A stretch of 64,000 bases of DNA from Ceratobasidium sp. AG-K (lineage: Eukaryota > Basidiomycota > Agaricomycetes > Cantharellales > Ceratobasidiaceae): NCBI GenBank assembly GCA_037039685.1, contig JAWNGF010000002.1, positions 5,642,001 to 5,706,000 on the forward strand, in the 5' to 3' direction. Positions 15,009-51,258 of the stretch are shown piece by piece. The translations under genes were made by a program, and so were the position numbers. Below the pieces are notes generated by a model that was not told where the DNA came from, searched no databases, and was given only the letters and a program-made list of their open reading frames with translations. How positions within the stretch are numbered: position 1 is the stretch's first letter; every line of letters starts with the position of its first letter.

Positions 15009-17531
15009 ATGGATGACTGGGGTTTACTTCCTCAGGTGGATCAGGACATTATTAGTCGTACAACTGTGAGTGAACAACTCAGCCAAACTCGTATCACGAT
15101 TATAGAGCTGATAGTCGGAGAAATAGTCTGTAACCGATGTTGTTCACATTCTTTCCCGGCATGGGTGCTCCGACCTCACATTGGCGATCGATCCCGACGC
15201 ATGTAGTGGCTCGCCGGTCGCCGGAGGAGGATTTTGCGATGTCTACCGAGGAGCAACTAGGGGTGGCACCCAGATCGCTATCAAGTGTTTGAGGATTTTT
15301 GACATACCAGGGAAGGAAAATGAGAAACAGAAGATCCTTAAGGTTTGGATAGCGGAACAGCAGAAGACGGCAATCGTTTGCTGACTTTCATGCTGGATTC
15401 TAGTGCGCAGCAAGAGAATTGTATCACTGGTCAAAATTGAAACACCGTAACGTGCTTCCTCTTATGGGTCTCGCCATGTTCCAAGGATGGATCTCTATGA
15501 TATCTGGGTGGATGGACAACGGTTGTCTATTAGAATACATCACCGCAAACTCAGGAGTTAACCGGATGGATCTTGTGAGTAATGCCCGGAACATGCGTTT
15601 AGAGCCGATTCTAAGGAGTCGAAGTGTAAAGGCATTTGTGCGGGCCTGTCTTACATTCACGCAAACGGAATGGTGAGCCTATGCTATAAGATGTGGTTTA
15701 CTGCTGAGCCAGCACATTATACAGATCCACGGTGACCTAAAAGCGGTGAGTACCCTTTCCCAGTAGAAAAATCGCAGGTTGTAGTAGTTGATAGGCCTAT
15801 AAGGCAAACGTGATGGTTTCTCGCAATGGCATCGCTCTAATTGCCGATTTTGGAAACTCCGAGCTACGGGATCTCACCCTGAAGTTTACCAATGTGACGA
15901 ACACTAGCCTCTCAGTTCGATGGGTGGTGCGTAACTATGTTATACAGGTGGCTGCAACTAATCCTCTATTAGGTGCCTGAGGTTTTGGAGAAGCAAGGTG
16001 GACCGCACGCGAGTAAAAAGGCAGACGTATATGCATACGCAATGGTATGCTTGCAGAGTTCTCGGACTCCCTAGTTTTACTTATTTAGGCCATACAGACG
16101 GTGCTGGTAGGAGCGGCCATGTGCTTTACTAACAGGAGATGCTCATGATGACACTGCAGGAAACACTCACAGGAAAGCCTCCTTATGACGGGCTCAGCAA
16201 GCGGCGAGTCTTGGTCTTGGTCGCAGTCCAGCACAAGATCCCAGAGCGTCCCGTGACTGGCGTGAGCAAGAGAATGTGGGAATTATTACAATACTGTTGG
16301 ACGTGGGACAAAGCAAAGCAACCGGATATAACTCTTGTGGAGAAACATCTGCGGACTTTATCTGGCTACCTGGTTGCGCAAACAACAACCACAGAAGAGT
16401 TTGACGGTATTGGCTTAGAGGTGAGCATCGCTTTGACGCGTTGTTATGAGAAGCTGATACTGCAGCTGTGTTAAACCTCGAAAGCTACAAAAAATAGGTA
16501 ATCTAGCGTCAACATACCGCTCCCAAGGTTGACTGGCAGAGGCCGAGTTGCTGGAGGTCGAGGTGCTGGCTATCCAGAAGCAAGTGCTCGGAGACCATCA
16601 CCCTGAAACACTCACGAGTATGGGCAACCTTGCGTCAATGTACTGTTCTCAAGGTCGGCTAGCAGAGGCAGAGTCACTGGAGGTCGAGGTGCTGGCTATC
16701 CAGAAGCAAGTGCTCGGAGACAATCACCCTAAGACACTCACAAGTATGGGCAGCCTTGTGTCAACGTACCGCTCCCAAGGTTGGCTAGCAGAGGCAGAGT
16801 CACTGGATGTTGAGGTGCTGGCTATCCAGAAGCAAGTGCTTGGAGACAATCACCCTGAAACACTCACGAGTGTGGGCAACCTTGCGTCGACGTACTGCTC
16901 CCAAGGTCAGCTAGTGGAGGCAGAGTCACTGGATGTTGAGGTGCTGGCTATCAAGAAGCAAGTGCTTGGAGACAATCACCCTGAAACACTCATGAGTATG
17001 GGCAACCTTGTGTCAACGTACTGCTCCCAAGGTCAGCTAGCAGAGGCAGAGTTGCTGGAGGTTGAGGTGCTGGCTATCCAGAAGCAAGTGCTCGGAGACC
17101 ATCACCCTGACACACTCACAAGTATGGGCAACCTTGCGTCAACGTACTGCTCCCAAGGTCGGCTAGCGGAGGCAGAGTTGCTGGAGGTCGAGGTGCTGGC
17201 TATCCAGAAGCAAGTGCTTGGAGACCATCACCCTGACACACTCACAAGTATGGGCAACCTTGCGTCAATGTACTACTCTCAAGGTCGGCTAGCGGAGGCA
17301 GAGTTGCTGGATGTCGAGGTGCTGGCTATCCGGAAGCAAGTGCTCAGAGACCATCACCCTCACACACTCATGAGTATGGGCAACCTTGTGTCAACGTACT
17401 GCTCCCAAGGTCAGCTAGTGGAGGCAGAGCTGCTGGAGGTCAAGGTGCTAGCTATCCGGAACTTGAAGCCAGTGCTCAGTGACTATCACCCTCACACACT
17501 CAAGAGTACAGATAATCTAGCATTGATCTAA
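15009..17531 (+). CDS. Kinase-TPR protein A (TKL-like kinase + kinesin-light-chain-type TPRs), probably damaged
   Basis: First of four tandem paralogs. Exon 1 (ATG 15009, 19 codons) ends at 15065; exon 2 starts at 15127 with SVTDVVHILSRHGCSDLT, matched in the other copies. Kinase motifs: Gly loop GGGFCDVYRG, lysine in AIKCL, alpha-C Glu in RELYHW, HGDLKAAN catalytic loop, ADFGNS, VPE in place of APE. A 9-nt exon (16098-16106, TVL) precedes ETLTGKPPYDG. The kinase part ends near 16420. The TPR part (16548-17531) has seven nearly identical 42-residue repeats plus a partial one. Between them lies a first repeat in which Trp has become TGA (16530-16532). Either an intron 16421-16541 skips it, or the gene is broken into kinase and TPR halves. 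Role unknown; kinase activity looks possible, and the TPRs would bind partners. Confidence 0.72.
16548..17520 (+). repeat. 126-bp tandem repeats encoding 42-residue TPRs in gene A
   Basis: Seven consecutive units plus a diverged eighth. The unit encodes LEVEVLAIQKQVLG, then DHHPDTLTSMGNLASTY, then CSQGRLAEAE. Units differ by only a few bases each, so recent duplication or gene conversion is likely. The unit type is the 42-residue TPR seen in kinesin light chains. Confidence 0.9.
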
Positions 17532-17610
17532 ATTAAACAAGGCCGGCTAACACAGGTGGAATTGTTAGAAACAGAAGGGTTGATTACCTAGAAGCAAGTG
17601 CTCAAGTAGT
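17532..17610 (+). pseudogene. Decayed TPR repeat beyond the stop of gene A
   Basis: Right after the TAA at 17529-17531 the sequence can still be read as KQGRLTQVELLETEGLIT, then a stop, then KQVLK and another stop. This is one more TPR unit that has lost its frame. Gene A was formerly longer and has been shortened by nonsense mutation. Confidence 0.65.
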
Positions 17611-18801
17611 GTATTGCCAGTTTTTGCATGATATGATTGGTGCTTCACACATAAATCAAGTGCAACTTTGGCCAAGACCGCTTGGTGCTCTTGTATCTGA
17701 GGTCAAGATGGTATTTGTGAAGGTGCAAAAATGAGTTGGGTCACTGGTTCTTCTGCGTTTCATTTGTTTGATTTCTCTGATAGCCTTATATATGTGTTCT
17801 TCTATGTGAGCTTGCACTATTATAACACTGTGCCAAAATGCATGATTGTCCTTACGGGGTTAGCACTATCTCCTTTTTGTAATGGACTCAGTTCTTATCA
17901 TCTCATTGATTGGTGCGGATTTGCTAGTATCCTGCCCAGTTGTTTCATGGGAATTTCTATGAGGGATCTGTCCAGGTAGTCTACTTCGGCTGCGACATCT
18001 AAAAACTTATGCTCTAGACATAGTGACCTGGGAGAAAATGTAAATGATGTACTACAGCTTGTAATGTAGCAATGACCTAATTAATGTGAGAAGATAAAAA
18101 GAGGAAGAGAAGAAGAAGATCTAGAAAGAAAGCTACTTTAGAGAGAAAGGCAGCATTAACCGGAGCTAATTCAGCTACAATCATGTCTCTCAGCTTGCAG
18201 GAAGCACAGGAAGCACAGCTGACAAATCTGCCACTCAACATGCCTCCAGCATCTCTGGGCCATATGTAACTCCAAAAAAGATGTGATCCATTTCTTGAGA
18301 CTACTTTGGAGTATATTACATAGATTCACGGAGCCCCGCGTTGCCCTAGAGTCTGGAGAATGTGAAGGATTAGGGCACGTGTTGCTCATGTTTAGTAAAA
18401 GCGCCATTTGTCAGCGTGCAAGCAGAGGGACATGTCTGTACGGTAATGCTTATGATATCAACGTTTCAACCACAGTAACTACACAGCCTGAGGCCAAGGC
18501 TGTGACTCCTGATCCCTCACGTTACAACTCGCACTTCATCACAATCTACGTCCCCCAATTGCTCACCACAATCCTTGATCCAAATGTAGGTCACAGGAAC
18601 CGTGTTTATTTTCACTGGCTTACTTTTGACTGCTCAAATTCCAGCTAGTGCCCGACGTAAGGCCTTGATACTGCCCTCGAACCATACTACCCACGTATTC
18701 GCGGTTACTATCCAGTGCAGTTTAGGATATTAATTTAATATATCTAGCAGGTCCTCCTGAGTTGGGTTTCACAAATTGTGGCAAAGCACAATCATTACCT
18801 G
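17611..18801. other. Intergenic spacer, no gene seen
   Basis: About 1.2 kb between genes A and B. It contains a purine-rich run (about 18093-18150) and short open frames without recognisable domains. No clear remnant of a kinase exon was found. Confidence 0.4.
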
Positions 18802-20803
18802 ATGGAGGGTGGAGTTCCACTGACTAGCACCAGCCTGGACCTCATCGGCAGCACAACGATCAGCGATTGATTAGCCAACTAGTGATAATGCCCTTTTTAT
18901 AACTAACTTGGAGATTGTAAACTCCTAGTCTGCAGAAGATATTATTATCGCCCTTGCTCAACGTGGCTGCATAGACCTCACTTTGTTGATTGACGTATCC
19001 GCAAGTAGTGCCTTCCTGCTTGCTGGAGGAGGGTTCTGCAACGTGTATCAGGGAACTACCAATGGTCGCATAAAGATAGCTATCAAGTCTCTGAGACTCT
19101 ATGACAGACCGGGAAAAGGCACCAAGAAGGAGAAAATACTTAAAGTTGGTCCTGCTGGGAGATGGTCATACATGCTAATGATACATGGCTACTGGTAGCG
19201 TGCTGCAAGGGAGTTGTATCACTGGTCAAAACTAAATCACCCTAACATGCTACCATTGATGGGAGTGGCAATGTTCTGCAGTCACATGTCTATGGTATCT
19301 GAGTGGATGGATAACGGCAGCCTGATGTCGTATATCAGCCTGAATCCCAATACAAATCGGATTCATTTGGTGAGTAACGCTCAGAATGTACGTTAACAGC
19401 TGGTTTTGAGGAGTCAAAGTGCCTCGACATCTGCACTGGATTGTCATATATTCACGCAAAGGGAATGGTAAGCAGAATAGGAAGCTAGATTAAAATAACT
19501 CATGCTTAGATGGGTGTATGACCAGGTTCATGGCGATCTCAAGGCGGTAAGTGGGCGTACGGTATATCAATTTTCCATGGCAATAGCTCAATGCAAATGA
19601 ATAATGTGACAGGCAAACGTTATGGTTTCTCACCATGGCACTGCATTGATTGCCGACTTTGGAAACTCCCAGATCAAGGATCTAACACTCAAGTTTATGA
19701 ACACAACAAGCACAAGTTTATCGGTCCGATGGGCGGTATGAATGAGGTCCTGCCAGGTTCTTAAACATAGCTAATACATTCTGTTAGGCACCCGAGCTCT
19801 TGGAAGAGGATGATTCTCCTCATGTAAGCAAGGAGGCTGATGTCTATGCATTTGGAATGGTGCGCATGAGATTTCCTGTTTCTTTCATCCACTAACATAT
19901 TATTCCAGACCGTACTAGTATGTGTATTGTTCCCATTTGGTTAGATGAGTATGTTCACACCTGTTTTAGGAAACCCTCACAGGGAAGGTTCCGTACGATG
20001 ATTGTAGCGAACAACAAGTGCTGCTTTTGGTTGCAGTTAACCATAAGACTCCAGACCGACCCGCAGTTGGTGTGTGGGATGATATATGGGCGCTACTGCT
20101 GTCCTGTTGGATATGGGAGCAGTCTAAACGGCCGTTTATTGCAGATGTCAAAGAGCAGTTGTTAGCTATATCAACGGATCTAGCTGCAAAACACTATTAT
20201 CAAGGACGACTGTGGGAGGCAGAATCGCTATACGTTGGAATTATTGCCTTTCTCAAACAAGAGCATGGGGAAGACCACTTGGAAACGTTGCAGACCATGG
20301 CAAACCTAGCCGCAACGTACCTAAGTCAAGGCCACCCCAAAGCGGCGGAGTCTCTTGGTGCTGAAGTGATGGTTACTCAAAAGCGAGTCCTTGGTGAAGA
20401 GCACCCTGAAACTCTGAAAACCATGGCGAACCTGGCAGCAGCGTATATTAACCAAGTTCGACTTGCAAAGGCCGAGTCGCTCGGGGTTACAACGCTTGCC
20501 ATGCAAAGGCGAGTGCTAGGAGATCACCCTGATACGCTACAGACCATGGCCAACCTCGCGGTGACGTATATTCATCAGGGGCAACTGGCAGAAGCAGAGT
20601 CATTGGACACTGAAGTAGTGACCGGTCGAAAGCGAGTGCTCGGGCCATCACATCACGATACCTTGCGCAGCATGCAGCATCTTGCTGATACGTACAAGGT
20701 GCAGGGCAAGTATGCTCAGTATAATGCACTACTGCTACTTCACCGGCTTGCCGATGGCTTGCTTGACAAAATGATGGTCAGTGGGTATGAAGCCGGAATT
20801 TAA
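18802..20803 (+). CDS. Kinase-TPR protein B, intron-1 donor mutated
   Basis: Second paralog. ATG 18802 begins a 19-codon exon MEGGVPLTSTSLDLIGSTT, ending at 18858 exactly where the paralogs splice. The next bases are ATCAGC where GT is expected, while the acceptor before SAEDIIIALAQRGCIDLT (exon 2, 18929) is intact. Kinase motifs are complete: GGGFCNVYQG, AIKSL, HGDLKAAN, ADFGNS, APELLE, and the 9-nt TVL exon at 19909-19917. The frame then runs open through the kinase C-lobe (LLLVAVNHKTPDRP, LLLSCWIWEQSKRP) into about four TPRs, one of which has lost a residue (LGDHPDTL), ending YEAGI at 20803. If the donor really is dead, the protein cannot be made from this ATG. Otherwise it would be a kinase with a short TPR tail. 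Confidence 0.72.
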
Positions 20804-23122
20804 GGACGATATGCATGATATATATATAACTAGGACATGCATGGTCTTTGTGCACTGGTCTGCACAGATCTTGTCGAACCATGTCACTGCCGTGGATCGT
20901 TGAGGGAGTCGAGCAGCCCTTTGGAGCAGGGACAAGAAACCAAGCGTTTTGGAGCGGCCCCCACCGCGAAGGCAAGATATAGCGCTATTGAGGGATGGGT
21001 AAATTTTGTATCGTAAACTCCTGAGTGGTGATATATGATAGTCCTCAGTTCATGTGTAGCTGGGGAGGTGGGAAGTGATCTCGACGAGCTCAAGGGGTCA
21101 ACAGGAAATATGAAAGTTTGTATCAGCATTGGTAGCGGATCGCGAAAATAGGGCAGCGCAGGCGCAGAGATCTGTACGATATTGTCAGCAGACGCAAGCT
21201 ATTCCCGCAAGAGTTGCCGCCTAAGTTTGGATAGATAGACTGGTCGAAAGAGCCGGACACCCAGGTGAGAGTCCAGAGCCCTAAGGCCGATTAGACTTTG
21301 CAGTTTCATCGAGAAAGTAGAGTGGTGAATGGAGGGTAGAGCCACATGTGTTAAGCTGTTGGACTGACTGGGAAGCCACTGTTGAGCAGCTCAAGCTCCT
21401 GTCACTGTCCAAGTAGCCCGGCGTAGTCGAGCCTAGTCACTTGATTTCTGGAAGTTAGTTTTCCATAGGTTTGGTCGTCGTAGTAGCGGTCCCACAGTCG
21501 ACTGAATCGGGGGTGCGTGTGACGGTAAAGAGTAAATTTAGGCTTGGTTGACGCATCCGCTCCACAAGCGCCGGGTCGAGGATCACGTGGGTGTCGGCGT
21601 GCATCGGAGATTTTGACGAAACCAGGGCCAGCGACGAATCTCGCCAGTGTCAAGATAGCGGAATGGCCAGTGAGACTCCAATATGAGGTGACTGCTGTGA
21701 TAAGGTATCATATGGCTCGTCCACGTTGTGCTCATGCTTACACAAGTGTCAAAAGTGGCCAAGCCCGTGATTCGTTCCTTGCTTCAATCCTGTCTATCCA
21801 TCCTCCACTCGCCTTGACGCGTCGCCGGTAGAATTCCTCATGTCCCGATGGTGGCGCTAAATCTAGGTGCTGCGACTGACTCGACGCCAGTAAAGCTCTG
21901 TCGGAAGACGCGGGTTTCGATGTCATGCACTCTGGATAGTACGGAGTGCTGTGGCACTGTCTCTCGAACTGGGATTGCTACAAACAACATACTGGATGAC
22001 ATCATCGGGACTTCAAAGGTGTCGCATGACTAAAGGGCAAATGAAGGGTTGATGAGGGCACAGAGGTGCGTCAGCCACCCCAACCGTCCGCTCGCGCTGA
22101 CACGGTCCCGCATTAGGTCCCCAGAGCTCGCCTATCATCCACATATCTGGGTAGCCCCGACTATCATCAGCGTGGCCAACTCTTTGAGTCATCGTCTTTC
22201 ATTATCTCGCGCAACGAACGGGTCATGGAGACGGCGGGACGGTTACTACCGTGACTTTATTCAGTATGAGCCCCCTAATACGACTTAGCTGACTCGTTAG
22301 CCCTTGCTTAATCAATCCATATTTCAGCCGAGCAGGATTTCGACCCGGTACCTTCGGTATCTGATTCTCATTCGGGCATTTCTGCAGAATGCATTGTGAC
22401 GCTAAATCAACTCGGTTGTTTTCATTCAATAGAGTAACAAATATTTAAATATCATACCCCCATACATTCTATTTTGCCGCAACTTCCGTGAATCGCGATC
22501 GAGCCGGGCGTTTGCCGTGTGCCTGTTCTGTGTCATAGGGCTGGTTTGGTTCACTGTCCGATTCACTCGCTCTGACGAACAGTTTTGTGGATATACATGA
22601 AGCTGTTGTTTTCGGAATACATGGGGGTTTAGTGATCTATACTAGCATTGACGTATCGTGATAGCTTCAAGCAATACGAAAATCGATTTCCGGCAAGTGC
22701 GACTATTCTCGCACCGGAGCAACATGTTTGTTCAACTATACAGTACCATTCGGTCCATTCCGCAACGTGGCCAGCTCTAGAGGCAAGACCCGGACCCTGC
22801 ATCATTCTCATCATTCTCTGGCGCTCATTCCTGGTGTGATCAACGACCCATTCATTGAATTCTATCTGTTGCAAAAGTGGTATCGCAATACTTGGACACG
22901 CGTGAGAAGCCCGAACCAGTCAACACATCCTTATTGAATATCACTGATTCCGTTGTACAACTGTATTAGCGCATCAGGAACGAAGCACTGCGGCCGAAGC
23001 GGCCGGTATCTAAGCGTCGGACACCATTACCGACTTATCACTTGTGGACCATCGCTTTTTCATAAGCCCGAACATCTCCTTGTAGTTCCCATTCCGTTTC
23101 CCGAAGAAACAAGCAACTGTAA
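20804..23122. other. Long intergenic spacer, no gene seen
   Basis: About 2.3 kb between genes B and C. Only short overlapping frames occur on both strands; none shows a domain, splice pattern or similarity to the flanking kinase genes that I can recognise. A CGGCCG-AAG-CGGCCG mini-palindrome lies near 22990. Confidence 0.4.
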
Positions 23123-25358
23123 ATGATGGGCGATGACAAGATAGAGGACGAAGCCGGGTCACCCCTGAATTCCAATAGAGATCTCATTGGTAGTGCATCG
23201 GTGAGTGCCCAATCACTTTATGACACTACCTTCCACCTTGTCCGCATGCAGCCACAACGTTAAACACCCTATAGTCAATAAAGGATATTATAGCCGCCCT
23301 GGCCAAACGTGGCTGCTCGGACCTCACGCCGTCCATCGATTTAGCTGCATGTGGCGAGCATCCGTATGCAGGCGGGGGGTTTTGTGATGTGTATAAAGGA
23401 GCTTTGAGTTCTGGAAAGAAGATAGCTATCAAGTCTTTGAGGATATTCGAGAGATCGGGGGACGATCAGAATAGCGAGAGGACACGGATCCTCAAGGTTA
23501 GCCCGCAAAACGTAAGGCGAGTGTATTGATATAGTGTAGTTCCTCTTAGCGCGCCGCACGAGAGCTTTATCACTGGTCAAAGCCAAAGCACCCTAATGTA
23601 CTTCCCCTGATGGGGCTCGCCGTGTTCCGCGGACACATGTCCATGGTATCCGAGTGGATGGATAACGGCGACTTGGCTTCGTATGTTCAATGCAATCCAA
23701 CTGCAAACCGGATTGGCCTCGTAAGTGGCATTCATGGTATGCGCCTGAGGCGAACCCTGATTTGCTCTAGTGTATGGATGTTTGCGCAGGCTTACGCTAC
23801 ATTCACGTGAATGGCATGGTAAGCAAATTGAACGCGCTGAACAAAATGCTGTTTGGCTGAAAGATTACCTCACTAAGGTTCACGGCGATTTGAAAGCGGT
23901 AAGAGTTCAGCGTCTATCGCTGCTCTCCAAGTCTATCCTGGCTCATACTTATCATAGGCAAACGTTGTGGTCTCTCCGAGTGGTACAGCAATGATTACCG
24001 ATTTTGGCAATGCTCAGCTTCAAGACCTTTCTCTCATGTTTTCGAATACAACTAAGTCTAGTTTGTCGCTTCGATGGGCGGTATGCAACCTCCTCAGTTG
24101 TTCCTTGGTTTGTCTAATCCCGCGCACCAGGCACCCGAACTCTTCTGCGCGGAAACCACCTCGCGCTTGACCAAAGAGGCAGACGTGTATGCGTATGGAA
24201 TGGTCAGTTTTTGAATATATCGTCATCCCTTATGGTTGCTGATAGATTTTTTAGACTGTACTTGTACGTTCATATGCAATATATGTCTTTTTATGCAACA
24301 ATTACTAATGCTTCCTATCAGGAGGTGCTGACTGGTAAAGTGCCATTCGATGGGCTAAGTGATCATCAAGTTATAGTGAGGGTCGCATTCGAGCACAAGG
24401 CACCTTCACGCCCAATGGTTGGCGTAAGCGAGGAATTATGGGTGCTCCTGCAAGGCTGCTGGACCTTGGATTCATCTAAACGACTCGACATTGAGAGCGT
24501 TGAACTGCGGTTGGAAGCATTATACCCACGCTCACTTGAGCACACTTATGGACATAATAACCTAGGCAGCATCCCCCTTATGGTAAGTGGAGTCTTATCA
24601 CAGCTCGCAAGCGTGGTCTGATCTTTTATGCTACCTTTTACGCACGAAACTGCCATTAGATGAGTCAACCATCATCCCCGTTAACAGAGGCAAGCGGCCC
24701 GCTTGTATCTTCAATTAATGTCGAAGACTATGACCCCGAACAACTCAGGGGTTTGGCTGGGCTGGCAAATTCCCATTTTTTACAAGGTCGACTAGCCGAA
24801 GCAGAGTCTGTGGGTGTTAAGGTAATGCTTGCCCGGAGGCGAGTGCTGGGGAGCGAGCACGCCGACACAATACGGAGTATTATCGAACTTTCAATGACCT
24901 ACTACAGCCAAGGTCGACTGGCAGACTCCGAGTTACTCGATATCGAGGTCCTACTTGCTCGGAAGCGGGTGCTAGGAGAGATCCATCCCCTAACCTTGCA
25001 AGCCATCGAGGATCTTGCGAAGCGGTACTGTGAACAAGGTCGACTTGAGGAGGCAGAGGCACTGCAGGTGGAGGCCTTGAGTGCCTTGGAACGAGTATAT
25101 CGACAGGACCACTCCAATACATTACGTGGCATGACTGCCCTAGCAACGACATACTACAAGCAGGGCCGATTCGTGGACGCTGAGCTTTTGTATGTCAAGT
25201 TAGTGGAGACTCGCAAGCGGTTGCAGGGGTATGGGGAGTACCACCGCGATACTGTGCGGGACATGAAAAATCTCGCCGAAACATACAAGGCCCAAGGGCG
25301 TGCCACCCATTATGACGCGCTTATTGCCCAGGTCTACGAAATCACTGCAAGGCATTAA
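23123..25358 (+). CDS. Kinase-TPR protein C (best-preserved copy)
   Basis: Third paralog and the only one with no lesion seen. Exon 1 runs from ATG 23123 to 23200 (MMGDDKIEDEAGSP..., 26 codons), intron 23201-23274, then SIKDIIAALAKRGCSDLTPS. Kinase motifs: GGGFCDVYKG, AIKSL, RELYHW, HGDLKAANVV, TDFGNA, APELF, TVL microexon 24255-24263, EVLTGKVPFDGL, and LLQGCWTLDSSKRLDIE. An intron before 24661 separates the kinase from a linker (MSQPSSPLTEASGP) and about four diverged TPRs (FLQGRLAEAESVG, YSQGRLADSELL, CEQGRLEEAEALQ, YKQGRFVDAELL), ending at 25358. The kinase-plus-TPR order recalls plant brassinosteroid-signalling kinases, but that is an analogy only. Cytosolic signalling is the likely setting; there is no signal peptide or membrane segment. 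Confidence 0.8.
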
Positions 25359-26991
25359 CAACTTCCAGTTTCCCCGCATTTCTTCCTTTCATAGCTGTTT
25401 CTTTGCTTATTTAACTTGGGGTATATGTCTATTCCTTTCTGTGTTTCTTATAAATTCTCTCGCAATAAACTCGATCACGAGTATGAATTTGTACCTACAG
25501 CCGACAAGGCTATATAACTGTAATCTTACTACATAGCCGTAACAAATATGATGGATAAGAGACATGAGCCTCGAACAGTGATTTGAGGGAAGGGGCGCAG
25601 AGCCAGTGCGGGTGGCACCTTGTCCAACATATGTGAAGGGGCTATTATCATAGTCCAGACACTATTTGTGCGGGAAATAATATACGGAGCTCAATAACAT
25701 TCAAGACGGGAGAAAACCTGGTTCTCTTTTTGACGACTGAAATACCCGAGTTCAAGTGCAGCGACGGGCGGAGTGCTAGACAGAATGTGCTAATGCAGGC
25801 AGGTCCAACGCAGATCTAGAAGGCGTGACCACTGATAGTAGAAGTGCAAGGCCGATGAAAAAAGGTAGGATGGAAAGCTTCCTGGGATGCCCGGATCCGG
25901 GGGTACGTGCACACTACACTGGTACCCTGACTCCGGATCCGCTGACAGGTCTAGGCAAGTGTTGGCTATTTTTGATATTATTGCCGACTAGTGGCTGTTG
26001 GAGCGTAGCGCTACGGTGCACGTGACTGGTTCCCGCGCATGACCCGCCTCCTATCCTCGCCGAGTATTTAGCCGTTTGCCCCTGTTCACGTATCCTCAGT
26101 TGGCTTCGTTATCCACGCTGCCCGCTGAGTTATTGTTTCGTGCAGCGTCCACAGTGGCACGGGGCGGACCAGGAGCCATTCTAATGTACTGCGGCTTTAC
26201 TGCGTGAGTTGAGCACCATGGATATACTTATGTTGAAAATACCGCGGCGCTGGGAGCTAGGACCACCTGGGTGGCAATGCCACCCAGGTACTCCCGGCAT
26301 TTGCTGCTCATCTCGTCATCACTATTCTCGTCCCGTGCACCCGTAAATTATTTGTTGCTCACATCTATCTTCATCTCTGGGGATCGCACATCGTCGAAAA
26401 CAATTGCTGAGTTTAGGATATCATTGGGGTAACACGTATGTGAACGCATGGACCCGTCAGAAAAATGGCACTGATTTCAAATTAAATTTAGCCTGTGGAA
26501 AGACCTCGTTACAGTACTGCAAGGTAGCGATATAGTGCACCACGTTTTGGTAAATGGGTTATGGTCCAATTTCCAGAAATATGTTGCGCGAAGTTGAATT
26601 GTATTATGGGTTCGAAATGCGGGTGATAGTTCTACGGAGTTTGGTTTTGTCGCGAACCACTGCCAGTGTCACGAGGTCCCTGACAATACACCGAATGCGG
26701 GCCGATCGGATCCGACGTGGGACCGGCGCTCATATCGCTACCTGATGCGACATCAGCCTTCGACTTGACGGTTTCGGGTCCCGAATAATTATAGGTAGTA
26801 GGTGCGAATTATTTTAGCAAGTAAACTATGCTGAATCTTCGGGACCATGAGTCATTATCACAAATCGACGCCTTTGGCCCATCACCAGTCATCCTTCCCT
26901 ACCTTTCCACACCCCTTGGGCGATATTATACACCCGGCAAATTCGTCCAACTAAGTCCTTTGAAACGCAAACTCCCTAAAATTATCAGACC
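25359..26991. other. Long intergenic spacer, no gene seen
   Basis: About 1.6 kb between genes C and D. It holds a perfect 12-bp palindrome (26265-26289, listed separately) and no open frame with recognisable content. The promoter of gene D should be at its right end. Confidence 0.4.
26265..26289. repeat. Perfect 12-bp inverted repeat with a 1-nt loop
   Basis: ACCTGGGTGGCA at 26265-26276 is followed, after one A, by its exact reverse complement at 26278-26289. Short GGGAG/CTCCC segments extend the potential stem outside. It could be a hairpin, a dimeric protein-binding site or the core of an excised element; nothing nearby decides this. Confidence 0.7.
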
Positions 26992-29900
26992 ATGGACAGC
27001 AGGAGTTCGATCCCTGATATTAGCCAAGACTTCATTGGCAGTGCTACGGTAAGCCTCTTATTGATTGGGTGTAGTTAATATATTCTGTGTTTGAGAGGCT
27101 GATTCATGAGTATGAAGTCTATCAAGGATATTATAAGCACCCTAGCAGGACGCGGCTGTACAGATCTCACAACATCGATTGATTTAGCTGCCTGCAGCGA
27201 CTTTCCGCTCGCTGGAGGAGGGTTTTGCGACGTATACAAAGGAAGCACAAGGCAGGGTACAAAAATAGCGATTAAGTCATTGAGGCTATACGAGAGGCCG
27301 GGAAAAGATAACGATAAGGAGAAGCTCATAAAGGTTGGTCGATAGAAAGAGGGTTATCTGTGAATCGTTATTGATAATAGGCGGTGGATAGCGTGCGGCG
27401 AGGGAGCTGTATCATTGGTCCAAATTGAAGCATCCTAACGTGCTACCGTTGATGGGACTTGCTATGTTCCGGGGACACATGTCTATGATATCCGAGTGGA
27501 TGACCAACGGTAGTTTGTTGGCCTATGTTAACTCAAAAACGGGCATAGATCGAATTGGCCTTGTGAGTGCCGTATATTGCGGTTTGAAGGGCTTTGTTAA
27601 TTAGTGCTAGTGTATCGACATTTGCGCAGGACTGTCTTATATTCATGAGAACGAAATGGTAGGGCAAATCATGTCTATCGCCCTAAACTCATCACTGAAG
27701 TGATTTTCACACAGGTTCATGGGGACTTGAAAGCGGTAGGTTTCTCTACCCTTGTAAACCGGTTGACGCTGTAAGAACGTTATAGGCAAATATTATGGTC
27801 TCTACCGACGGCACCGCTATGATTGCCGACTTTGGCAGTTCTCAGCTGAAAGACCTTACACTGAAGTTCACAAACACAACAAACCTTAGTTTCTCGGTTC
27901 GATGGGCGGTACGAAACAATTCCATCACATCTTGAATGCAACCAACGCTCTTTATTAGGCGCCTGAACTCTTAGACGAATCTAATGGTTTGCATGTGAGC
28001 ATGAAAGCAGATGTATATGCGTTTGGGATGGTGCGTCTACAAAGCAATTATAATAAATTAAGTCACAGTTTTAACTAATTTGGGGATGATAGACCGTCCT
28101 AGTGAGCGTGCAATCGGCATTCAAGTCAGCAGGTTGCTTATACCTTTCGTGCAGGAGACCTTGACCGGCAAAGTTCCTTATGATGAGCTCACCGAGAATC
28201 AAGTTATGATTATGGTGGCAGTGAAACGCAAGATACCAGCCCGCCCAGCGGATGGGGTGAGCAATGATTTATGGGAAATAATTCAAAACTGCTGGAAATG
28301 GGAACAGTCTGAACGGCCCGAAATCAAAAGCGTTGGGGAGCAGCTGCTCGCCGCCTTTGCACGTCTTACAGTGGAAGCAGACGGATCGGATGATTCGGAC
28401 ATCAGCCAACTTAGGGCAAGTGTTCCTACTCACATGTATATCTATGTACTGATACGTGAAGGACGTCGCTAACTTGTTTCCAGATGGACGAGCTAGATGT
28501 TTCTCACCCAGAAGCCAGCATTGTGGCCACGCCAAGTGAACCGGGCCGTGAAAGGGTAAGGAGCCCCGACGGCCCAGTACCAGCTTACTGGAATAAAGAG
28601 CGACTAGTGGACATGGAATTACGGGAAGCCAAACTATTGGCCGCTCGAAAACAGCTACTTGGGCCGAGCCACCCCGACACACATACATAACATGGCGATG
28701 CTAGTGACCATATACCATCAGCAAGGTAGACTAGCGGAAGCAGAATACTTAGGAACTCAGGTACTGGCTGCTCGGAAGCAGGAACTTGGAGACGAACATC
28801 CCAACACACTACAAAGCGCAGCAATTTTAGTGTCGCTATATATCGATCAGGGTCAACTTGAAAAGGCGGAAGTGATGGGGAACGAATTGCTGTCAACTCA
28901 GAAACGCGTACTCGGGGAAAACCATTGCAGCACTCTGAAGTGTATGTCTCACCTGGCAACGACGTATGCCCAACAAGGTCGATTACCAGAAGCAGACTCA
29001 CTGGGGAACGAAGCGGTGGCCGCCCAGAAGAGAATATTAGGAAATTCCCATCCGGATACACTCCAGACCACGGTGGGGCTAGCGAGGACATATGCCAAAC
29101 AAGGTCGATTATCGGAGGCGGAGTTACTGGTTGATGAAGTACTGGCCACTTCGAAGCAACTACTTGTAAAAGACCATCCCGACTTGCTCAAGACCATCGC
29201 GGATCTTGCAAAAATATACCAAACTCAGGGTCGAATAGCGGAAGCAGAACCTCTGTATGCTGAGGTAGTGCTCGCTCGGAAGCGCGTACTTGGGGAGCGC
29301 CACCTACATACCCTCCATAGTATCGCGGATCTAGCGGGCACGTACCTCAAACAAGGGCGTCTTTTGGATGCGGAACCACTGTATGTCGAGTTGCTATTTT
29401 CTCAGAAGCAAGTGCTTGGAGAGCACCACCATGAGACTCTCCAAAGCATGGTGAACCTAGCAGGCGCATACCGCCGCCTGGGTAGGCTGGCGGAAGCAGG
29501 AGCATTGCTTTTCGAAGTATTATCCTCTCGAAAGCATATACTTGGACGAGAGCACCCCGACACACTACAAAGCATGGCGGATCTAGCAGACATATACTAT
29601 CACCAAGGTTGGTTGTCGAAGGCCGAGCTATTATACACGGAGGTGACAGCATCCCGGAAGCGAGTACTCGGAGACGACCATCTTGATACGCTACAGACAA
29701 TGGCAAACCTAGTACACACATATCATAACCAAGGTTTCGTTGTCGAGGCAGAGCTACTGTGCACCGAGGTGTTGGCTGCTCAGCAACGAGTTCTCGGAGC
29801 AGATCATCCCGATTCAATCCAGAGCGTGGCCGATCTCGCAGCAACATATCACTACCAGGGTCGAGTCACAGAGGCAGAACCACTGTGCGCCGAAGTACTA

Positions 29901-32190
29901 GCTGCTCGAAAACGGACACTCGGGAAAGATCATCCCAGCACTTTGCAGAGCATGATGGATCTGGCGAGTGTATACCATCGTCAAGGTCGAATCGAGGACG
30001 CAGAACCCCTATACTTGGAGGTAACGACGGCTCGGAAGCGAGTGCTCGGAGAGTTGCATCCCGATACGCTCGAGAGCATGGCAAACCTAGCTTACGCGTA
30101 TTACCACCAAGGGCGAGTGGCAGAGGCAGAAAGTTTGTACGTGGAAGTTGTCGCGACTCGCAAGCAAGTGCTAGGAGAAGACCATCCCGACTTGCTCCAA
30201 AGCATTGCAGACCTAGCGACAATATACCACACTCAGGGTCGACTAGCGGAAGCAGAGCCTCTGTATGCCGAAGTAGTGCTCGCTCGGAAACATGTGCTCG
30301 GAGAACGCCACCCCCGTACGCTCGAAAGCATAGCAGCTCTAGCAGAAACATATTTCAAACAAGGCCGACCGTTGGATGCGGAGTCATTGTACACTGAAGT
30401 GTTGGTCGCCCGAAAGCAAGTGCTCGGAGAACGCCACCCTGATACCTTACGGAGTATGGCAAACTTAGCGGACATATATCGCTACCTGGGTCAACTGACG
30501 AGGGCCAAACCTTTGTGCGTTGAGGTACTGGCATCTCGAAAATGGGTCCTTGGAGGGGACCACCCTGATACACTGCAGAGCATGGCGAACCTAGCAAACC
30601 TATACCATTGCCAAGGACAAATGATGGCGTCGGAGCCATTGTATGCTGAACTGGTGGCTGCTTATAAGCGGGTTTTCCGGGAGGACCACCCAAGCACGCT
30701 ACAGAGTATAACAGACCTGGCAAACGTCTACCACCGCCAAGGCCGAAATGCAGAAGCGGAGTCCTTATATCTCGAAGTAGTGGCTGCGCAAAAACGAGCT
30801 CTCGGAGAAGAGCATCCAGACACGCTGGGTAGTATGAAGAGCCTAGCGAAGAAGTACTACGAACAAGGTGGATTGACAAAGGCAGAACCCCTGTATGCTG
30901 AAATAGTGGCCGTTCAAAAGCGAGCTCTTGGAGAAGACCACCCCGATACGCAACGAAGCATAATAGATCTAGCAAAGAGGTACTACTCCTGTAAACGACT
31001 GGAGGAAGCACAGGGGCTATATGCCGAAGTAGCGGCCATGCGCAAGAAATTATTCGGAACAGAACACCCCGATACACTACAGAGCATGGTTGATCTAGCA
31101 GACACGTATTATGCGCGAGGTTGGTGCGCGGAGGCGGAACCACTGTATCTCGAAGTGATAGCCACTCGAAAATCCGTGCTGGAGAAGACCATCCTGATAC
31201 ACTCATACTATGACAGACCTTGCAAGGAAGTACTACAGCCAAGGTCGGCTGGCAGAGGCAGAGCCGCTTTACCTTAAGATGATCGATTTTCGAAAGCGAA
31301 TACTTGGAGAATACCACCCCGACACACTGCGGAGCATGACGAGCCTGGCGAAAAAGTACTATGATGATCGCCGAATAACGGAGGCAGAGATATTATGCTC
31401 TAAAGTGGTGACCGCTCGGACGCGAGTACTTGGGATACAACATCCTGACACTTTACAAAGCATGACAAACCTGGCGCATACATACCATCACCAAGGCCGT
31501 CTGACCGAGGCGGAGCCGCTACTTGCCATCGTGGTGTCCACCCAGAAGCAGGTACTCGGGCATAATCATCCCGATACGATACAAAGCTTAACAAACCTAG
31601 CAAACGTTTACCACTACCAGGGTCGACTAAAGGACGCAGCGCCACTATATGTTGAGGCTTTAGCTGCTCGAGAGCGAGTGTTTGGAAAATTCGATTACCA
31701 CACCCTTCAGAGCCTGGTAGATTTGGCAACGGTATGCTATAACCAAGGCCACATGTCGGAGGCAGAGTCGTTTTACATCGAGCTAATCTCTATCGCAAAA
31801 CGGGTGCTCGGAGAATCGCACCCTGGTACCCTAGAATTGATGCTGGATCTAGCGGATACTCAACGCTATCAGGGTCGGCTGGCAGAGGCGGAATCGCTCT
31901 CTGTGCAAGTACTGGCTGCTCGGAGAATAATACTTGGAGAAGATCACCCTGACACGTTAAAGAGCATGATCAACTTAGCGGACGTCTACTATACACAGGG
32001 TCGGCCGATACAAGCGGAATTACTAAGAGCTCGAAGCGCTGCTATCCAGAAGCAAGCCAGTGAAGAGAGCTCCCCAGCGATTACATGCACCTTACGTGGT
32101 TCCACAGGGATCTCCGAGACTGAAAATCGGAAACATTGGTACGACGAACTTAAGGCCATTGTTGGCGTACTAAAATTCAAAGATCAATAA
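26992..32190 (+). CDS. Kinase-TPR protein D with 27 TPR units; frame broken in places
   Basis: Fourth paralog. Exon 1 runs from ATG 26992 to 27048 (MDSRSSIPDISQDFIGSAT); exon 2 starts at 27118 with SIKDIISTLAGRGCTDLT. Kinase motifs: GGGFCDVYKG, AIKSL, RELYHW, HGDLKAANIMV, ADFGSS, APELLD, TVL microexon 28093-28101, and IIQNCWKWEQSERPEIK. A GC-AG intron (28416-28483) leads to a linker and the first, partial TPR. The frame then stops at TAA 28688-28690, where one extra base seems to be present. It resumes from 28692 as a huge TPR array to 31277, and after two apparent single-base losses near 31181 and 31208 continues from 31210 to the stop at 32188-32190. Restoring three small indels would give a kinase with 27 full TPRs. 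Sequencing error, allelic damage or true pseudogenisation are all possible. Confidence 0.7.
28700..32100 (+). repeat. TPR-coding array of gene D: 27 units of 126 bp
   Basis: Counting the (Q/L)G(R/Q)xxxAE helix signature gives 20 units up to about 31160 and seven more after the frame break. Units are diverged from each other, unlike those in gene A or the NLR gene. Units 4-7 resemble units 12-15 more than their neighbours (both sets have HPDLL, then xTQGR(I/L)AEAEPLYAEVVLARK, then a KQGR(L/P) unit, then an LG instead of QG unit), which indicates an 8-unit block duplication of about 1 kb. Confidence 0.8.
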
Positions 32191-33281
32191 ATTTACTATC
32201 TCTGTACGTACCCATGTGCAATTAGGAACGGAAATGGATGCTTACGACGGTCACGGATGATTTGCTACAGAGCGCCCTAACTGAGAAGTCTTTGCTCGAA
32301 ATTACTCATGCGGACTTTGCGTCAATTCTTGCAGATTGTCTGGCTCGCGGCTCGAAGGACTCAGATTAGGCCACGCTATAGGCCAGATCATATAAGCGCC
32401 GGACCGAAACGAGCATCCATTTCCTTCCCTATATAAAGTAGTGTGCTTGATTCATTGGACTTCCTTACTTAGTGTTTGTCATTCGTATTACTTTCTCTTA
32501 TGCTCAACCCTATGCGTGGATGTATGCAGTCGGTCATGTGATCATATGAAATAAGTACCTCAAGTTCGCAAGTTTGCCGGAAAAACCTCAGGTTGTACAT
32601 TGTACCTATTATCCAAGGGATAGGCCATAGTCCGCCTACGTTTTGCGCTTTCCCTTACTGGTAGCCGTTCCCGCTCGGAATCACTCGCCCGATTACTAGG
32701 TCTCGGCAACTGCCCACACGACGCCGGTCCACATCTAAAAATCTCGTTCAGTTTAACCTCTACGTCTGGTGTTCGAATTTTACCCTCCCCCACGGCGTTC
32801 GTCTCGGGGGTCGTGAGGCCGGGCCTTTTGCAATTTGGGTAAGAACAGAGCGCTTCAGAAAATCCTCCTCGACATCATGCATACAAGCACTAAATGGCTT
32901 TCATACTCATACTAACCTTCAATCGTGTCTGATCTCCTCCACATTCCTCCTTAAGTTCTACCCCCATGATTGATATTGGGAGCTTATCATGATAAAATAG
33001 ACCTGCCATCAAGGTGACGTTCAACAACGGTTATGATTGGATTCGCCCTTAGTATGGGAGCTACGCTCTTGAATATTTTCTGAGCGCGTCAAATCTCGAG
33101 AGCGCACCGTCTAAAACACGGCTAACATGTTGTGAGGCATCCATGCGTTGAAATATTGCGATTACGGTTCTATGTTACAGTACCGAATTAGTTACAAAAG
33201 ATAGATGGTCACGTGATTTTCTTGCCCTCCAAACTGTGTCCATCCTCGGCCGCTAACGAATCGTAATACTGCGGTTCCAGA
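32191..33281. other. Intergenic spacer, no gene seen
   Basis: About 1.1 kb between gene D and MKT1. No domain-bearing frame was seen. A GTTCGAATTTTACC stretch near 32770 recalls a tRNA B box but has no matching cloverleaf. Confidence 0.4.
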
Positions 33282-35921
33282 ATGGTAATCAAGAATTTAG
33301 ACAGTAAGCATATTGGCTCTTAGTAATATCAAATGGTTAACACGTAGGATAGACTATATTACTGAGCGAAAGCATGACCAAACCCTTCCCCTCTCAACGC
33401 TATCCGAGTCGCGCGTCGGCATTGACGCATCCCACTACCTGAACAACCTTCTAGAAAATCCATCCACGAGAGAACCATATCTGGCGGCTACCGGTGGCAT
33501 TCCCCTGTCTTTGACCTCGCGAATTGAGCAAGATCTACGGGCCCTCGAGAAACTACATATCAAACCCGTTTTCGTGTTTCCAGGACTCCCACCTAACAAA
33601 CGCATCAACAAGAACACCCCACAGCAAAATGCTGCCAAGCAAATGGAGGCGTCTCATGCGCGTCGGGAAGCTTGGACTTGTTATATGAGAATGGGCGTAC
33701 TGAACAAGCGACCAAGTTATTCGAGACGAGGAGTAGCGTGGATCAATGGGACCTCTGGCGTCCTGTTCTACGAATTTTCAGGCATCGTAACGTCGAGTTT
33801 ATTATTGCGCCGTACTCTCCTTTAGCACAGGTGAGAAACTCCTGACTTTTGGTGGAGATGTTCCTCACGTCCGGGAATGGACAATTAGCTGGTCTATCTC
33901 CAACGCCATCCCAAATCCTACGTTCATGCAATCTACGGGCCGTCCGAACTCTTACTCTACCCTGGCGTCGACAAAGTCATCCTTTCTCTGGACCTCTCGC
34001 CACAATCCAACTTCACGTTCGTCTCCAAGACTAAGATGCTTGCCGACCTTCAACTGAATGAGGAGCAATTCCTTGATCTTGGGTTGCTTTGTGGTTCTGA
34101 ATACTCCGCAACCCTTCCTCCCCATGCGAATGAGACATCGATCAAGCCCTTTGTCGACTTTCTGCGATACTATAAGTCTGGGTTTATCTGTATCACAAGC
34201 GCGTTCCTCGACAATCAACTCATGAAGCAAACCAACTATGCCGAAACTTTTGCCCGTGCACGCTGTATGGTTAAATTTTCGCTCATCTTGTCTTCCGAGG
34301 GATCGGTTGTGCCGTTGCCCATTGCTCTCTCTGGTGGCTCGACTGGCACCACTACGGCGGCTGACATTCCGCAGGACTTGCACGACATATTTACCAATCG
34401 GCTCCCAGACGAAATTTTCTACTACCTTTCTCGAGGCCTATTCACACCTCAAGCGTTGGTCTGGCTGACTTCTGGGCAGATCATCGAGAATCCGCCGTTG
34501 GACAATGGCGAGACAAATGAGTACCGCCGGTTCGTCAAGGATGTAATCACAGAGGGAAGCACCGGCCCTCGGGCCACATCTCTTGGTTTGATCACGAATG
34601 TACTCCACTCAACTTGGCAAAAGACCCGCATTTCGACGCAGTTCTGGTACGACACTAACCCCAAGGGGTTCATCAGCCCCCATGTCCCACAAACCACCAG
34701 TCTGGTTGAGCGTGTTGTCAGCTGGAATGTTCCGAGCGCGATAGTTGAAGACGAGCTTCGGAGGCAAACGGTATGCTTGCGTGTCTTCGCGCTGTTATTT
34801 GCGAACTGAATTGTGGAATAGTCCTCGACGATCGATTTCACGCTGTGCCTAGGCGCGACGTCTACGGACAAGCTAGCTGCACGAACGCGCATCAAACCAA
34901 GCCCAAATCATCCGCTTGAGAAAAAAGATGAGGTTGTTGCAAACGTTATCTGGCGCTTCCTCGAGCTACGAGGGTACGTCGAATCAGCCAAATCCCAAAT
35001 TCTTGACTAAATGGCCTGTCAGCTTCCTGGTTCACCATCATACCCACTCGCCACTCGCGCGTGCACTTTACACCACACTCACTTCGGTGCGGGTGAATGA
35101 CAAGTTCCAAGACTCGATGTACCTCTTTTTGGAAATGGTCCGGGCAGGCGTAATCCACGGTAACCTTTGGAGTGGCCGGGCCTATAGCGGAGGACCTAGC
35201 TTTGGCGACGGCAAGTTTTATATAAAACTCTCAAAAGCATGCTCGACTAATTCTCGTATGCAGACGAGGAAAAGAAATGCATGCTGCTTATCATGCGTGT
35301 ACTGAGCATTGTCCCCCTGAGCTGCCACGTGCGTTTACCCATTCCTACACGTTGCTCATACTAATGTAGCTTAATGTCACAGGCCCAGCCGTGGAGTGGC
35401 CCTCTTTCCCGCGAACTTCTCGTCTTCAATTCTTTCCTGCGTTCACTGTCTCGGGCGCTACGCACACTCGTCGAAACAGTCGCGCTCAATATGCTCCTTC
35501 AACAGCACGCGCGTCGCCCCCGTGACGATCTCTTAGAGATCGCCGTTTCTCTACCATTTCAATCTGAGGTCAACACTGGATACGGAATACTGGCCAAGGT
35601 CTATCTCGACGCGCTGGTCGCGATCCATGGCGGGCCGGTCAAATCGCGTGATGATGAGGGCGTGCAAGAGGCCAAGGACGGCGCGATGGAACTAGTCGAG
35701 GAGACTTTTACTGGAGTCAAGAGCCCAAGGGCCGAGGTTGAACGTGGGTTTAGGTTCTGGGATGCGGTAAGTAATGGGATTCAAGTAGTAATATGTTGGT
35801 ACTGATATTTCACTAGGCGTTGATGACGATTAGGAGCCTCAGCCAAGACTCGTCCATGTCGAGCGAGTTGGCGGAAAGCTTCGAAAAGGCCCAGGCGTGG
35901 CTGGAACCAATGCGGCCATGA
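33282..35921 (+). CDS. MKT1: Mkt1-like post-transcriptional regulator (XPG-like fold), with an apparent 2-nt insertion
   Basis: Mkt1 proteins carry an inactive XPG/FEN-like nuclease fold plus MKT1 domains and act with Pbp1 in cytoplasmic mRNA regulation. ATG 33282 with a 5' intron ending at gatag gives MVIKNLDNYITERKHDQTLP and then VGIDASHYLNNLL, a typical start. Later blocks: IKPVFVFPGLPPNKR, VEFIIAPYSPLAQ|LVYLQR, a Tyr/Leu-rich central part, the MKT1 N domain (YAETFARARCMVKF, GLFTPQALVWLTSG) and the MKT1 C domain (PWSGPLSRELLVFNSFLRSL), ending at 35921. One intron (35211-35263) uses a GC donor. The frame breaks at 33682-33686, where TATAT replaces the TAT needed to link EAWTCY to ENGRTEQATKLFE. 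This is a null allele or a sequence error. The family call is firm. Confidence 0.85.
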
Positions 35922-36195
35922 ACGGCGCGGGGATATATGCGTTTCATAGAATTAAGTGCTTTTTTCCCGCCTTGTATCAATTGTTTGCTGTATGTACGGG
36001 CTCCGGGATTGTCTGTCATTATAGCACGTTGTATCAAGAAAACAAGCGCTGTTACATTTCTGTGGTAAACAAGTGTCATGAATGGGGGTAAACAACTGGC
36101 AGTGGTAAACATGTACAAGGCAATGCATATACAAAAATTGGCATGAAGGAGACACATGTAAAACCCAAAAGAAAGAAAAGAAAGTCCGATCATAT

Positions 36196-38957: not shown

Positions 38958-39008
38958 GGCCTAGTAGGAACAAACCGAATCGAATCGAAATGCGTACCGG
39001 GTTCCAGT

Positions 39009-39106
39009 CGAGCGAACAAAACGCCAATCGAGCGAATCGAGCGAACCAAGCGCCAATCGAGCGAACCAAAAGCCAATCGGGCGAACCAAAAGCCAATCGA
39101 ACGAAT
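39009..39106. repeat. 20-bp tandem repeat between two coiled-coil genes
   Basis: Four 20-bp copies of the CGAGCGAACCAAAAGCCAAT type (39009-39028, 39038-39057, 39058-39077, 39078-39097) plus two partial copies. They occupy the short interval between the stop of one minus-strand gene (39152) and the first visible exon of the next (38957), so they are in its promoter, 5' leader or first intron. Confidence 0.8.
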
Positions 39107-39151
39107 TCACGATTCACGCAAAAACCAACAAAAAATAAATTACGGTCTCAG

Positions 39152-41645: not shown

Positions 41646-41779
41646 AGCGAGTGGATCGTAATGTGTCGTAAACGGGATAAATAGATGTGTTAAATCGTTT
41701 TAGATGGAAGCCCCCCACAGCGGAGGCGGAGGTGTGGTTGGGTGTGTGTCGAACATGAGGCTTCAGGCATCTTTCTTTG

Positions 41780-42277
41780 CAAATCATTTGTTGTTTGTTT
41801 GTCTGTGTCACATGACCGCTCTCACGCTCATTACGACAAACTGGGTCAAATAGAATAACATCCGGGAAAGGACAAGCCGGGATCGAATAATGTGTCCATA
41901 TATGGCTTATTAGTGAGGTTATTTTGCTTGCTAGAGTTCGTGTCCCACCAGCGCGCGGCGTTGTGGGCATGGGCTAGTCGATCAGCACTAGGAACGTACT
42001 GAAATGCCGGCCACCCGAGCCGAGTATATAATACATACATTTCGAATCGCGTCAATACGCAAATATTTTGGGCTTCTTGACTGCCCACCTGTCTCACCTG
42101 TCTCATCTGTCATCTTGGCGTAGGCAGCCGATCACGACGTCCTTTTGACACTTTTCCTCCTCAAACTTGACAAATTGATGGCTTTAAGTAAAAAGAAATC
42201 ACACTCGGAATCGCTCAGATTATCCCTCCCCTCTTCTCTCGGCGGCGATTTTCACCGACCAGCTCCTCTCCGTCCAA
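41780..42277 (+). promoter_or_regulatory. Upstream region of membrane-protein gene 1, duplicated at 50030-50511
   Basis: Blocks shared in order with the second copy include TGTxxCACATGACxxC, GGTCAAATA, AGGxCAAGCC, a TATATATGG box, CACGACGTC and a TTGxCAAATT stretch just before the ATG. Conservation in non-coding sequence suggests that promoter elements travelled with the gene and were kept. Confidence 0.6.
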
Positions 42278-51032: not shown

Positions 51033-51216
51033 GCGCTATTTATCACGGCCAAAGACACATTCCATTTGTATTTCTACGCATACGCGACTATCACAGCATC
51101 TGTCGATTTCCTTTTGTGGGCGCGCGCATCAACGACTAGCGTTAGGGCCCTGGACCGGCAGGCACTGAGCAATATACATGCATAGCCACTGGGCACGACT
51201 TCACTATCACGTCGCG

Positions 51217-51223: not shown

Positions 51224-51258
51224 CCGTCTCGACGCGCGACTGGATTCTCCATCACATC

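Follow-up and report, generated by a model that had tools for sequence, protein, structure and literature searches.

A 64,000-nucleotide stretch of the genome of Ceratobasidium sp. AG-K (positions 5642001-5706000 of contig JAWNGF010000002.1, here C2; 53.6 Mb in 17 contigs), referred to throughout as the window, was analysed for a cluster of protein kinase genes followed by tetratricopeptide repeats (TPRs) and for a neighbouring gene of the NOD-like receptor (NLR) type. An original prediction, made from the letters alone, had described four same-strand genes, each with a short leader and a complete kinase core joined to TPRs without a nucleotide-binding (NB) domain, near an NB-ARC protein carrying the same repeat, and had proposed a search for kinase-TPR architectures and trees of both modules to test for module swapping. 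The four cores (K1-K4) were recovered as described. A HGDLKA-type motif was found on the plus strand at 15728, 19529, 23881 and 27718 (a count of 4 at one mismatch or fewer, against 0.03 expected in shuffled sequence), the splice models share seven intron positions across all four genes, and each gene begins with a short leader exon followed by a conserved N-terminal segment (in K3: SIKDIIAALAKRGCSDLT). Repeats of 42 residues of the kinesin-light-chain type (TPR_10/TPR_12) lie behind each of K1-K4. In the examined parts of C2, from 5.564 to 5.9575 Mb, the kinase family numbers 15 loci, 10 of them with a TPR array behind.

K3 is read in the order kinase, linker, TPR (Pfam PK_Tyr_Ser-Thr, 2.5e-35; TPR_10, 1.2e-28). 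The kinase frame of K1 reaches its stop upstream of the repeats (7.6 copies with 90% matches by Tandem Repeats Finder), a TGA lies immediately 5' of the array, and the array is in a frame different from that of the kinase; as read from the sequence, K1 does not encode a single kinase-TPR protein unless a 133-base intron, placed by eye only, joins both parts. The donor of the first K2 intron is AT, not GT. The K4 array shifts frame twice, near 28.68 kb and near 31.2 kb, whereas in a second copy on contig C11 linker and array can be read without interruption over 1,243 aa. Assembly error may explain the breaks, since the copies of this gene show three single-base differences in length and, over the codons that were compared, three substitutions. 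The proposal of four kinase-TPR genes stands for K3 and is qualified for the other three by these defects. Pfam analysis of K3, and of the K4 kinase part with its first TPR frame, returned kinase and TPR and no NB domain, in agreement with the predicted joining of kinase and repeats; in the K1 and K2 frames, read by eye outside the Pfam scan, no other domains were seen.

The NB-ARC gene has the N-terminal domain, NB-ARC and repeats by which fungal NLRs are defined; its last two introns, unlike the first two, were placed by eye. Its patatin domain carries GTGTG at 43445-43465, with Gly replacing the catalytic Ser by comparison with patatin-17 (1oxw) and CapV (8zr9), and IGG where CapV has DGG. 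Judged by these residues, it lacks both the Ser of GxSxG and the Asp of DGG expected of an active phospholipase. NB-ARC matches in the genome number 25, of which eight besides the copies of the window NLR were examined for the patatin motif, a further 15 lying outside this set. GTGTG was found in the C11 copy of the NLR (C11:1273803) and in seven of the eight other loci (L001, L003-L008), and the motif was not found in L002; the Asp motif is DGG in one examined locus (on C1) and VGG in three. The loss was considered as a peculiarity of the window NLR, and this was rejected, GTGTG being present in each of the nine readable patatin-NLR copies. The catalytic Ser has apparently been lost in many NLRs of this genome.

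Features of the kinase and NLR locus, in window coordinates
Feature	Position	Strand	Description
K1 kinase gene	15009..16474	+	8 exons, leader exon 15009-15065, core complete; splice model, motif at 15728
K1 repeat array	16533..17528	+	about 8 TPR units, 126 bp each, in a frame other than that of the kinase
K2 kinase-TPR gene	18802..20803	+	end of kinase and 5 TPRs open in one exon
Duplicated block	20116..55377		inverse order at C11:1297628-1232946, identity of pieces 97-99%, about 28 kb extra on C11
K3 kinase-TPR gene	23123..25358	+	intact, 9 exons, 564 aa
K4 kinase exons	26992..28415	+	intact
K4 linker and about 28 TPR units	28484..32187	+	frame broken in window, open on C11
NLR	43218..47160	+	patatin from 43218, NB-ARC to about 45271, TPR array
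NLR sensor array	46201..47060	+	6 near-identical TPR units, degenerate units flanking

All four kinase models contain AIK, REL, HGD and DFG (read by eye), so by sequence K1-K4 keep the residues expected of an active protein kinase, namely the AIK Lys, the alpha-C Glu, the HxD Asp and the DFG Asp. In K1-K4, and in a further kinase gene, K6, described below, HGD places no Arg before the catalytic Asp (non-RD). The HGD pattern is present in 60 of the 62 kinases compared and was not found in the other two. The non-RD feature has been associated with innate immune kinases across kingdoms (PMC8463890). One such kinase, EFR, functions without its own catalysis. Tyrosine kinases (EGFR, ITK, Eph receptors) make up most of the solved structures that score best against the window kinases; CTR1 and TNNI3K, of the tyrosine kinase-like (TKL) group, are also present. 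A DLKAAN motif points to a Ser/Thr-type kinase, and its presence suggests this type for the window kinases. In a tree of 62 kinases (57 of 60 labelled database proteins, from 323 returned, and five from this genome), K1-K4 and K6 form one clade with support 96. Pairing with TPR requires four changes on this tree, and the well-supported branches force four, in keeping with domain swapping.

Relatives of the kinase were collected from databases as the best 120 of 412, 223 and 288 matches. Named relatives of K3 among the best-scoring listed are mostly from Rhizoctonia solani and Ceratobasidium, with a top identity of 62%. Among the matches listed, the same kinase occurs with no further domain listed or with TPR, WD40, CHAT, caspase, NACHT or NB-ARC-TPR. 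P0134 is kinase-CHAT, P0002 TPR-kinase-kinase-CHAT, and P0012 has a caspase domain (C14); P0162 is kinase-NACHT-WD40, and P0159 and P0206 are NACHT-kinase with the kinase C-terminal. P0157 and P0318 read patatin-NB-ARC-TPR-kinase, the last three domains being called by Pfam; the patatin gave no Pfam call at 1e-5, aligned with that of the window NLR at 32% and 35% identity, and in P0318 also appears in the precomputed domain list. P0157 shares 43% identity with the C-terminal part of the window NLR. All these fusions come from automatic gene prediction, and in some of them neighbouring genes may have been merged; for P0157 and P0318 an accident is argued against because they come from two Ceratobasidium species, are sisters on the kinase tree (97) and have a TPR running into the kinase leader. 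In P0012 and P0134 (one Rhizoctonia prediction) the kinase is joined to a caspase-type or CHAT protease domain, an architecture that suggests a link to cell death. A locus of the same kinase family on C6 (L031, C6:1329552-1331500) has a last frame that, by eye, runs into a C2-domain-like stretch, possibly a swapped partner.

Much of the locus is duplicated on C11. The duplicated block contains the K2 tail, K3, K4 and the NLR, its left end lying inside K2 (20116) and K1 outside; it continues with C2:5719698-5726437 (K5, K6), is inverted on C11 and shows 96-99% identity, with different insertions on each side. The C11 copy of K2 is without a kinase. That C11 is simply the other haplotype of the C2 arm was considered and rejected in favour of a block duplication, because window 10000-14900, to the left of K1, has no second copy in the genome and the K1 array has no other genome match above 74%. 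For C2:5947501-5956500, matches elsewhere were found only through short dispersed repeats. Between the two copies of K3, 8 of 23 changes are nonsynonymous and 15 synonymous (omega 0.16, p=2.6e-5), and K3 is therefore under constraint (purifying selection). The C2 and C11 copies reach 99.8% identity in K4 (26154-32190) and in the 5' part of the NLR (43201-46200), compared with 96.8-98.9% between and around them; gene conversion or selection are possible causes. About 158 bases at window 25996-26153 are lacking in the C11 copy, and the sequences on either side of them overlap by a few bases; they are possibly a small mobile insertion. Beyond the block end, at C11:1299877-1303998, lie open reading frames (ORFs) in which sequence like that of a retrotransposon integrase and a chromodomain was recognised by eye.

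Repeat units were compared at the DNA level between 27 arrays, six of them C11 duplicates; units at or below 12 bits, with stops or cut off were dropped (K1 from 8 to 7, K6 from 9 to 8, K3 from 5 to 4), and other NLR arrays were covered in part, with 4-6 units each. Mean unit identity to the window NLR is 0.61 for K1, 0.52 for K2, 0.53 for K3 and 0.55 for K4, and an NLR on C4 also reaches 0.61. A special closeness of the K1-K4 repeats to the NLR was accordingly rejected: of the predicted NB-ARC neighbour, the distance (11.0 kb) and the 42-residue repeat type hold, and a particular relationship to K1-K4 does not. Only K6 clearly stands out in this comparison (C2:5724012-5726812), which lies outside the window, 34.9 kb past the NLR, and whose units match those of the NLR at up to 0.88. 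From its second exon K6 is a single spliced open frame with GT-AG introns, encoding kinase, linker and nine TPRs. When the NLR array was compared with the whole genome and the best candidates scored, its own copies matched at 93-95%, K6 at 84% over 793 bp and the duplicate K6' at 85% over 776 bp, and of the other matches just two, of 128 bp and 135 bp, rose above 71%, to 72-73%. None of the other pairs among the 171 compared scores as high as K6/NLR (0.881; pairs counted without C11 duplicates, one C15 duplicate and KB). In the unit tree, built without the four C11 duplicates K2'-K5', each of the six core NLR units is separated by 0.13-0.23 from its closest counterpart in K6' and by 0.74-0.84 from the closest one in any other NLR. 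The likeness of K6 and NLR repeats fits one past transfer or a common origin, followed by homogenisation. A transfer from kinase to NLR is the direction towards which we lean, as yet unproven, because the three arrays nearest to the NLR are kinases while six of seven other NLRs have an NLR nearest.

Arrays were then assessed for high internal conservation, defined by Dyrka et al. as more than 85% identity across 100 aa of repeats (PMC4986451). This was exceeded by K1 (0.89), K6 (0.89), K7 (0.93) and the window NLR (0.92 on C2, 0.98 on C11), and by one other NLR array (on C4, 0.86). Among TPR-bearing kinase loci, these three of 11 are highly conserved and K2, K3, K4, K5, K8, K9, K0 and KA are not, the values in the window being 0.51 (K2), 0.43 (K3) and 0.74 (K4). 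Unit number also varies between duplicates: the NLR has 630 bp, five units, more on C11, and K6 has 9 against 7, while K2, K3, K4 and K5 have equal numbers in both copies (two copies, one genome).

Register within the 42-residue unit was set from the LA--Y motif of the canonical TPR signature, with a one-residue shift. Positions 2, 5, 9, 12, 13, 33 and 34, on the concave face, are the most variable in TPRs (Magliery and Regan, PMC1261162), and of these 2, 5, 9, 12 and 13 were tested, which are numbered 3, 6, 10, 13 and 14 in the 42-residue unit. The tested positions belong to the first helix in a model of the NLR (296-311 for the unit at 298), predicted from a single sequence with a mean pLDDT (predicted local distance difference test) of 62, about 75-89 over the repeats, and used for helix register only. 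A Fisher test for concave excess was rejected as unsuited where changes exceed sites, and was replaced by minimal-change counts on units at least 70% identical to the medoid (K1 6 of 7, K6 8 of 8, K7 12 of 13, NLR 6 of 9 and 11 of 14); since repeats exchange sequence, these counts are indicative and not a formal codon-model test. When K6 and K7 were pooled, concave positions had 1.05 amino-acid changes per site, other positions 0.28, and the synonymous rate was 0.37 (concave above synonymous, p=2.3e-4). Adding K1 gave 0.81 against 0.34 synonymous (p=8e-4), and three pooled NLR arrays followed the trend with 0.60 at concave positions against 0.33 (p=0.029). Position 3 of K7 is occupied by the codons CGG, CTG, TGG, CAG and GGG.

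The gap between K4 and the NLR contains an MKT1-type gene (XPG_N, MKT1_N) and minus-strand ORFs for which Pfam gave no match, and a Pfam scan of ten other ORFs returned no families. A gag-like ORF lies at window 59303-60709.

Several described systems resemble parts of this locus. Fungal NLRs with highly conserved TPR arrays, such as Pa_2_10340 of P. anserina (PMC4986451), are alike in TPR sensor arrays, internal conservation, unit-number variation and variable sites on the concave face; the window kinase genes differ in having no NB domain and the kinase joined to the repeats. PLP-1 of Neurospora crassa (PMC12881547) has the patatin-NB-ARC-TPR architecture of the window NLR, in which the patatin Ser and Asp are replaced. 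In fungal gasdermin systems, protease-repeat proteins have an enzyme fused directly to TPR, WD40 or ankyrin (ANK) repeats (PMC12881547), the enzyme being a protease there and a kinase here. Kinases are themselves listed among NLR N-terminal domains (PMC12881547, PMC10197012, PMC4986451). FslK, a fungal kinase lineage near tyrosine kinases that is expanded in some Agaricomycetes (PMC3937382), is comparable in that the window kinases also score near tyrosine kinases; TPR, WD40 and NACHT do not occur in the text of that paper. Among the matches listed, those with bacterial names showed 35-43% identity over about a third of the query, and bacterial Ser/Thr kinase-TPR proteins combine the same two domain types. 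Plant brassinosteroid-signalling kinases (BSKs), to which the genes had been likened in the original prediction, are membrane-anchored by N-myristoylation and mostly pseudokinases. The likeness is a resemblance in the order of kinase then TPR; the window kinases keep the catalytic residues looked for and start with MDDW, MEGG, MMGD and MDSR (K1-K4, by eye), with no BSK-type N-terminus. No description of highly conserved repeats fused to NB-less kinases was found in searches of open-licence papers.

We give about even chances to the reading that these are NB-less kinase-repeat receptors drawing on one pool of sensor repeats together with the NLR. The cluster would then hold genes for receptor-like proteins of the cell interior, each made of a non-RD, TKL-like Ser/Thr kinase followed, mostly after a short linker, by an array of 42-residue TPRs. 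The array would bind a variable protein ligand on its concave face; ligand binding, or loss of a guarded partner, would cluster or release the kinase, which would then phosphorylate a downstream effector. An NB domain would be unneeded in such a receptor because the kinase is proposed to be switchable by proximity. The NLR would take its sensor repeats from the same pool as the kinases and, after transfer from K6 or a shared origin with it, its array would have been homogenised and altered in unit number. Ligand binding, kinase activation, the downstream target and the direction of transfer, like a role in non-self recognition or cell death, are inferred from these patterns.

Speaking for this reading, mostly with data from outside the window, are the likeness of NLR and K6 repeats, the high internal conservation of the K1, K6 and K7 arrays, the concave excess in K6 and K7, the differing unit numbers of duplicates, the constraint on K3 and the varied domain partners of the kinase, all of them observations at the level of sequence. 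A number of results weigh against this receptor reading. Repeats of the kinases had been expected to be closer to those of the NLR than random TPRs of their type, and K1-K4 do not stand out in this respect. No first exon was placed for K6. In the unit tree, where the NLR core units are nearest to K6' rather than to other NLRs, the NLR units group in a clade apart (support 0.61) over weakly supported deeper nodes, and ongoing exchange is therefore not demonstrated. The K2-K4 arrays have diverged and keep the same unit number in both copies, and K1, the only highly conserved kinase array in the window, is out of frame and taken alone has no concave excess (0.28 against 0.30); by the same counts none was found in K8 or K9. 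The single arrays K6, K6' and K7 gave p values of 0.006-0.009, which would fail correction for the 12 arrays with at least 3 usable units, and the pool of K6 and K7 was chosen after the single arrays had been inspected. Concave positions are, moreover, variable in TPRs generally.

It is unlikely, in our estimate, that the genes are ordinary signalling or scaffold kinases, a lineage-specific TKL-like expansion whose TPRs serve to bind chaperones or partners in the cytoskeleton. Unequal crossing-over would then account for the likeness of repeats within an array, and variable positions would be no more than less constrained ones. TKL-like kinases are indeed strongly expanded in the agaricomycete Laccaria bicolor (PMC2838846), kinase-TPR proteins are present in bacteria too, eight of the 11 kinase loci are without high internal conservation, and K1, the only window array testable for recent diversification, showed none. 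Such kinases would not be expected to have ligand-facing amino-acid change at nearly three times the synonymous rate, as counted in K6 and K7, and relaxed constraint alone is insufficient to account for it because such relaxation would not surpass the synonymous rate; the repeats common to kinase K6 and the NLR, and the fusion of related kinases, by prediction, to NB-ARC, NACHT, CHAT or caspase domains, also speak against ordinary kinases.

The fusions admit another interpretation, which we consider improbable, in which kinase and NLR are partners in one pathway: having lost the catalytic residues of its patatin, the NLR would pass its signal to a kinase encoded by another gene, the two being combined in the fused Ceratobasidium proteins. 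The architecture of P0157 and P0318, the similarity of the NLR C-terminal part to P0157, and GTGTG and IGG in place of the catalytic motifs all agree with such a partnership; the fused proteins could be merged neighbours, though, the window kinases possess repeats of their own, and a motif found in all nine readable patatin-NLR copies is not special to the window NLR. More improbable still is that the kinase domains are integrated decoys, baits for foreign effectors or viral proteins targeting host kinases, and not outputs. C-terminal kinases of some Sordariales NLRs have been discussed as putative integrated decoys (PMC12258605), and in P0159 and P0206 the kinase forms the C-terminal end, behind NACHT, whereas in K1-K4 and K6 the predicted kinase is N-terminal, the usual place of an effector, and keeps the catalytic residues of an active enzyme.

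On the receptor reading, a broader proposal can be advanced tentatively, at somewhat less than even chances: that fungi of the Ceratobasidiaceae type have a second class of innate receptor inside the cell, NB-less kinase-repeat proteins, whose sensor repeats come by recombination from the same genomic pool as those of canonical NLRs. If so, one recognition surface could be coupled to a kinase in some proteins and to an NB-ARC switch in others. Surveys of intracellular recognition in fungi start from the NB domain, and NB-based counts of fungal immune receptors would then overlook an entire class. If true, the sharing of repeats inside a single cluster would provide a natural test of whether the repeats set specificity and the attached module the response.

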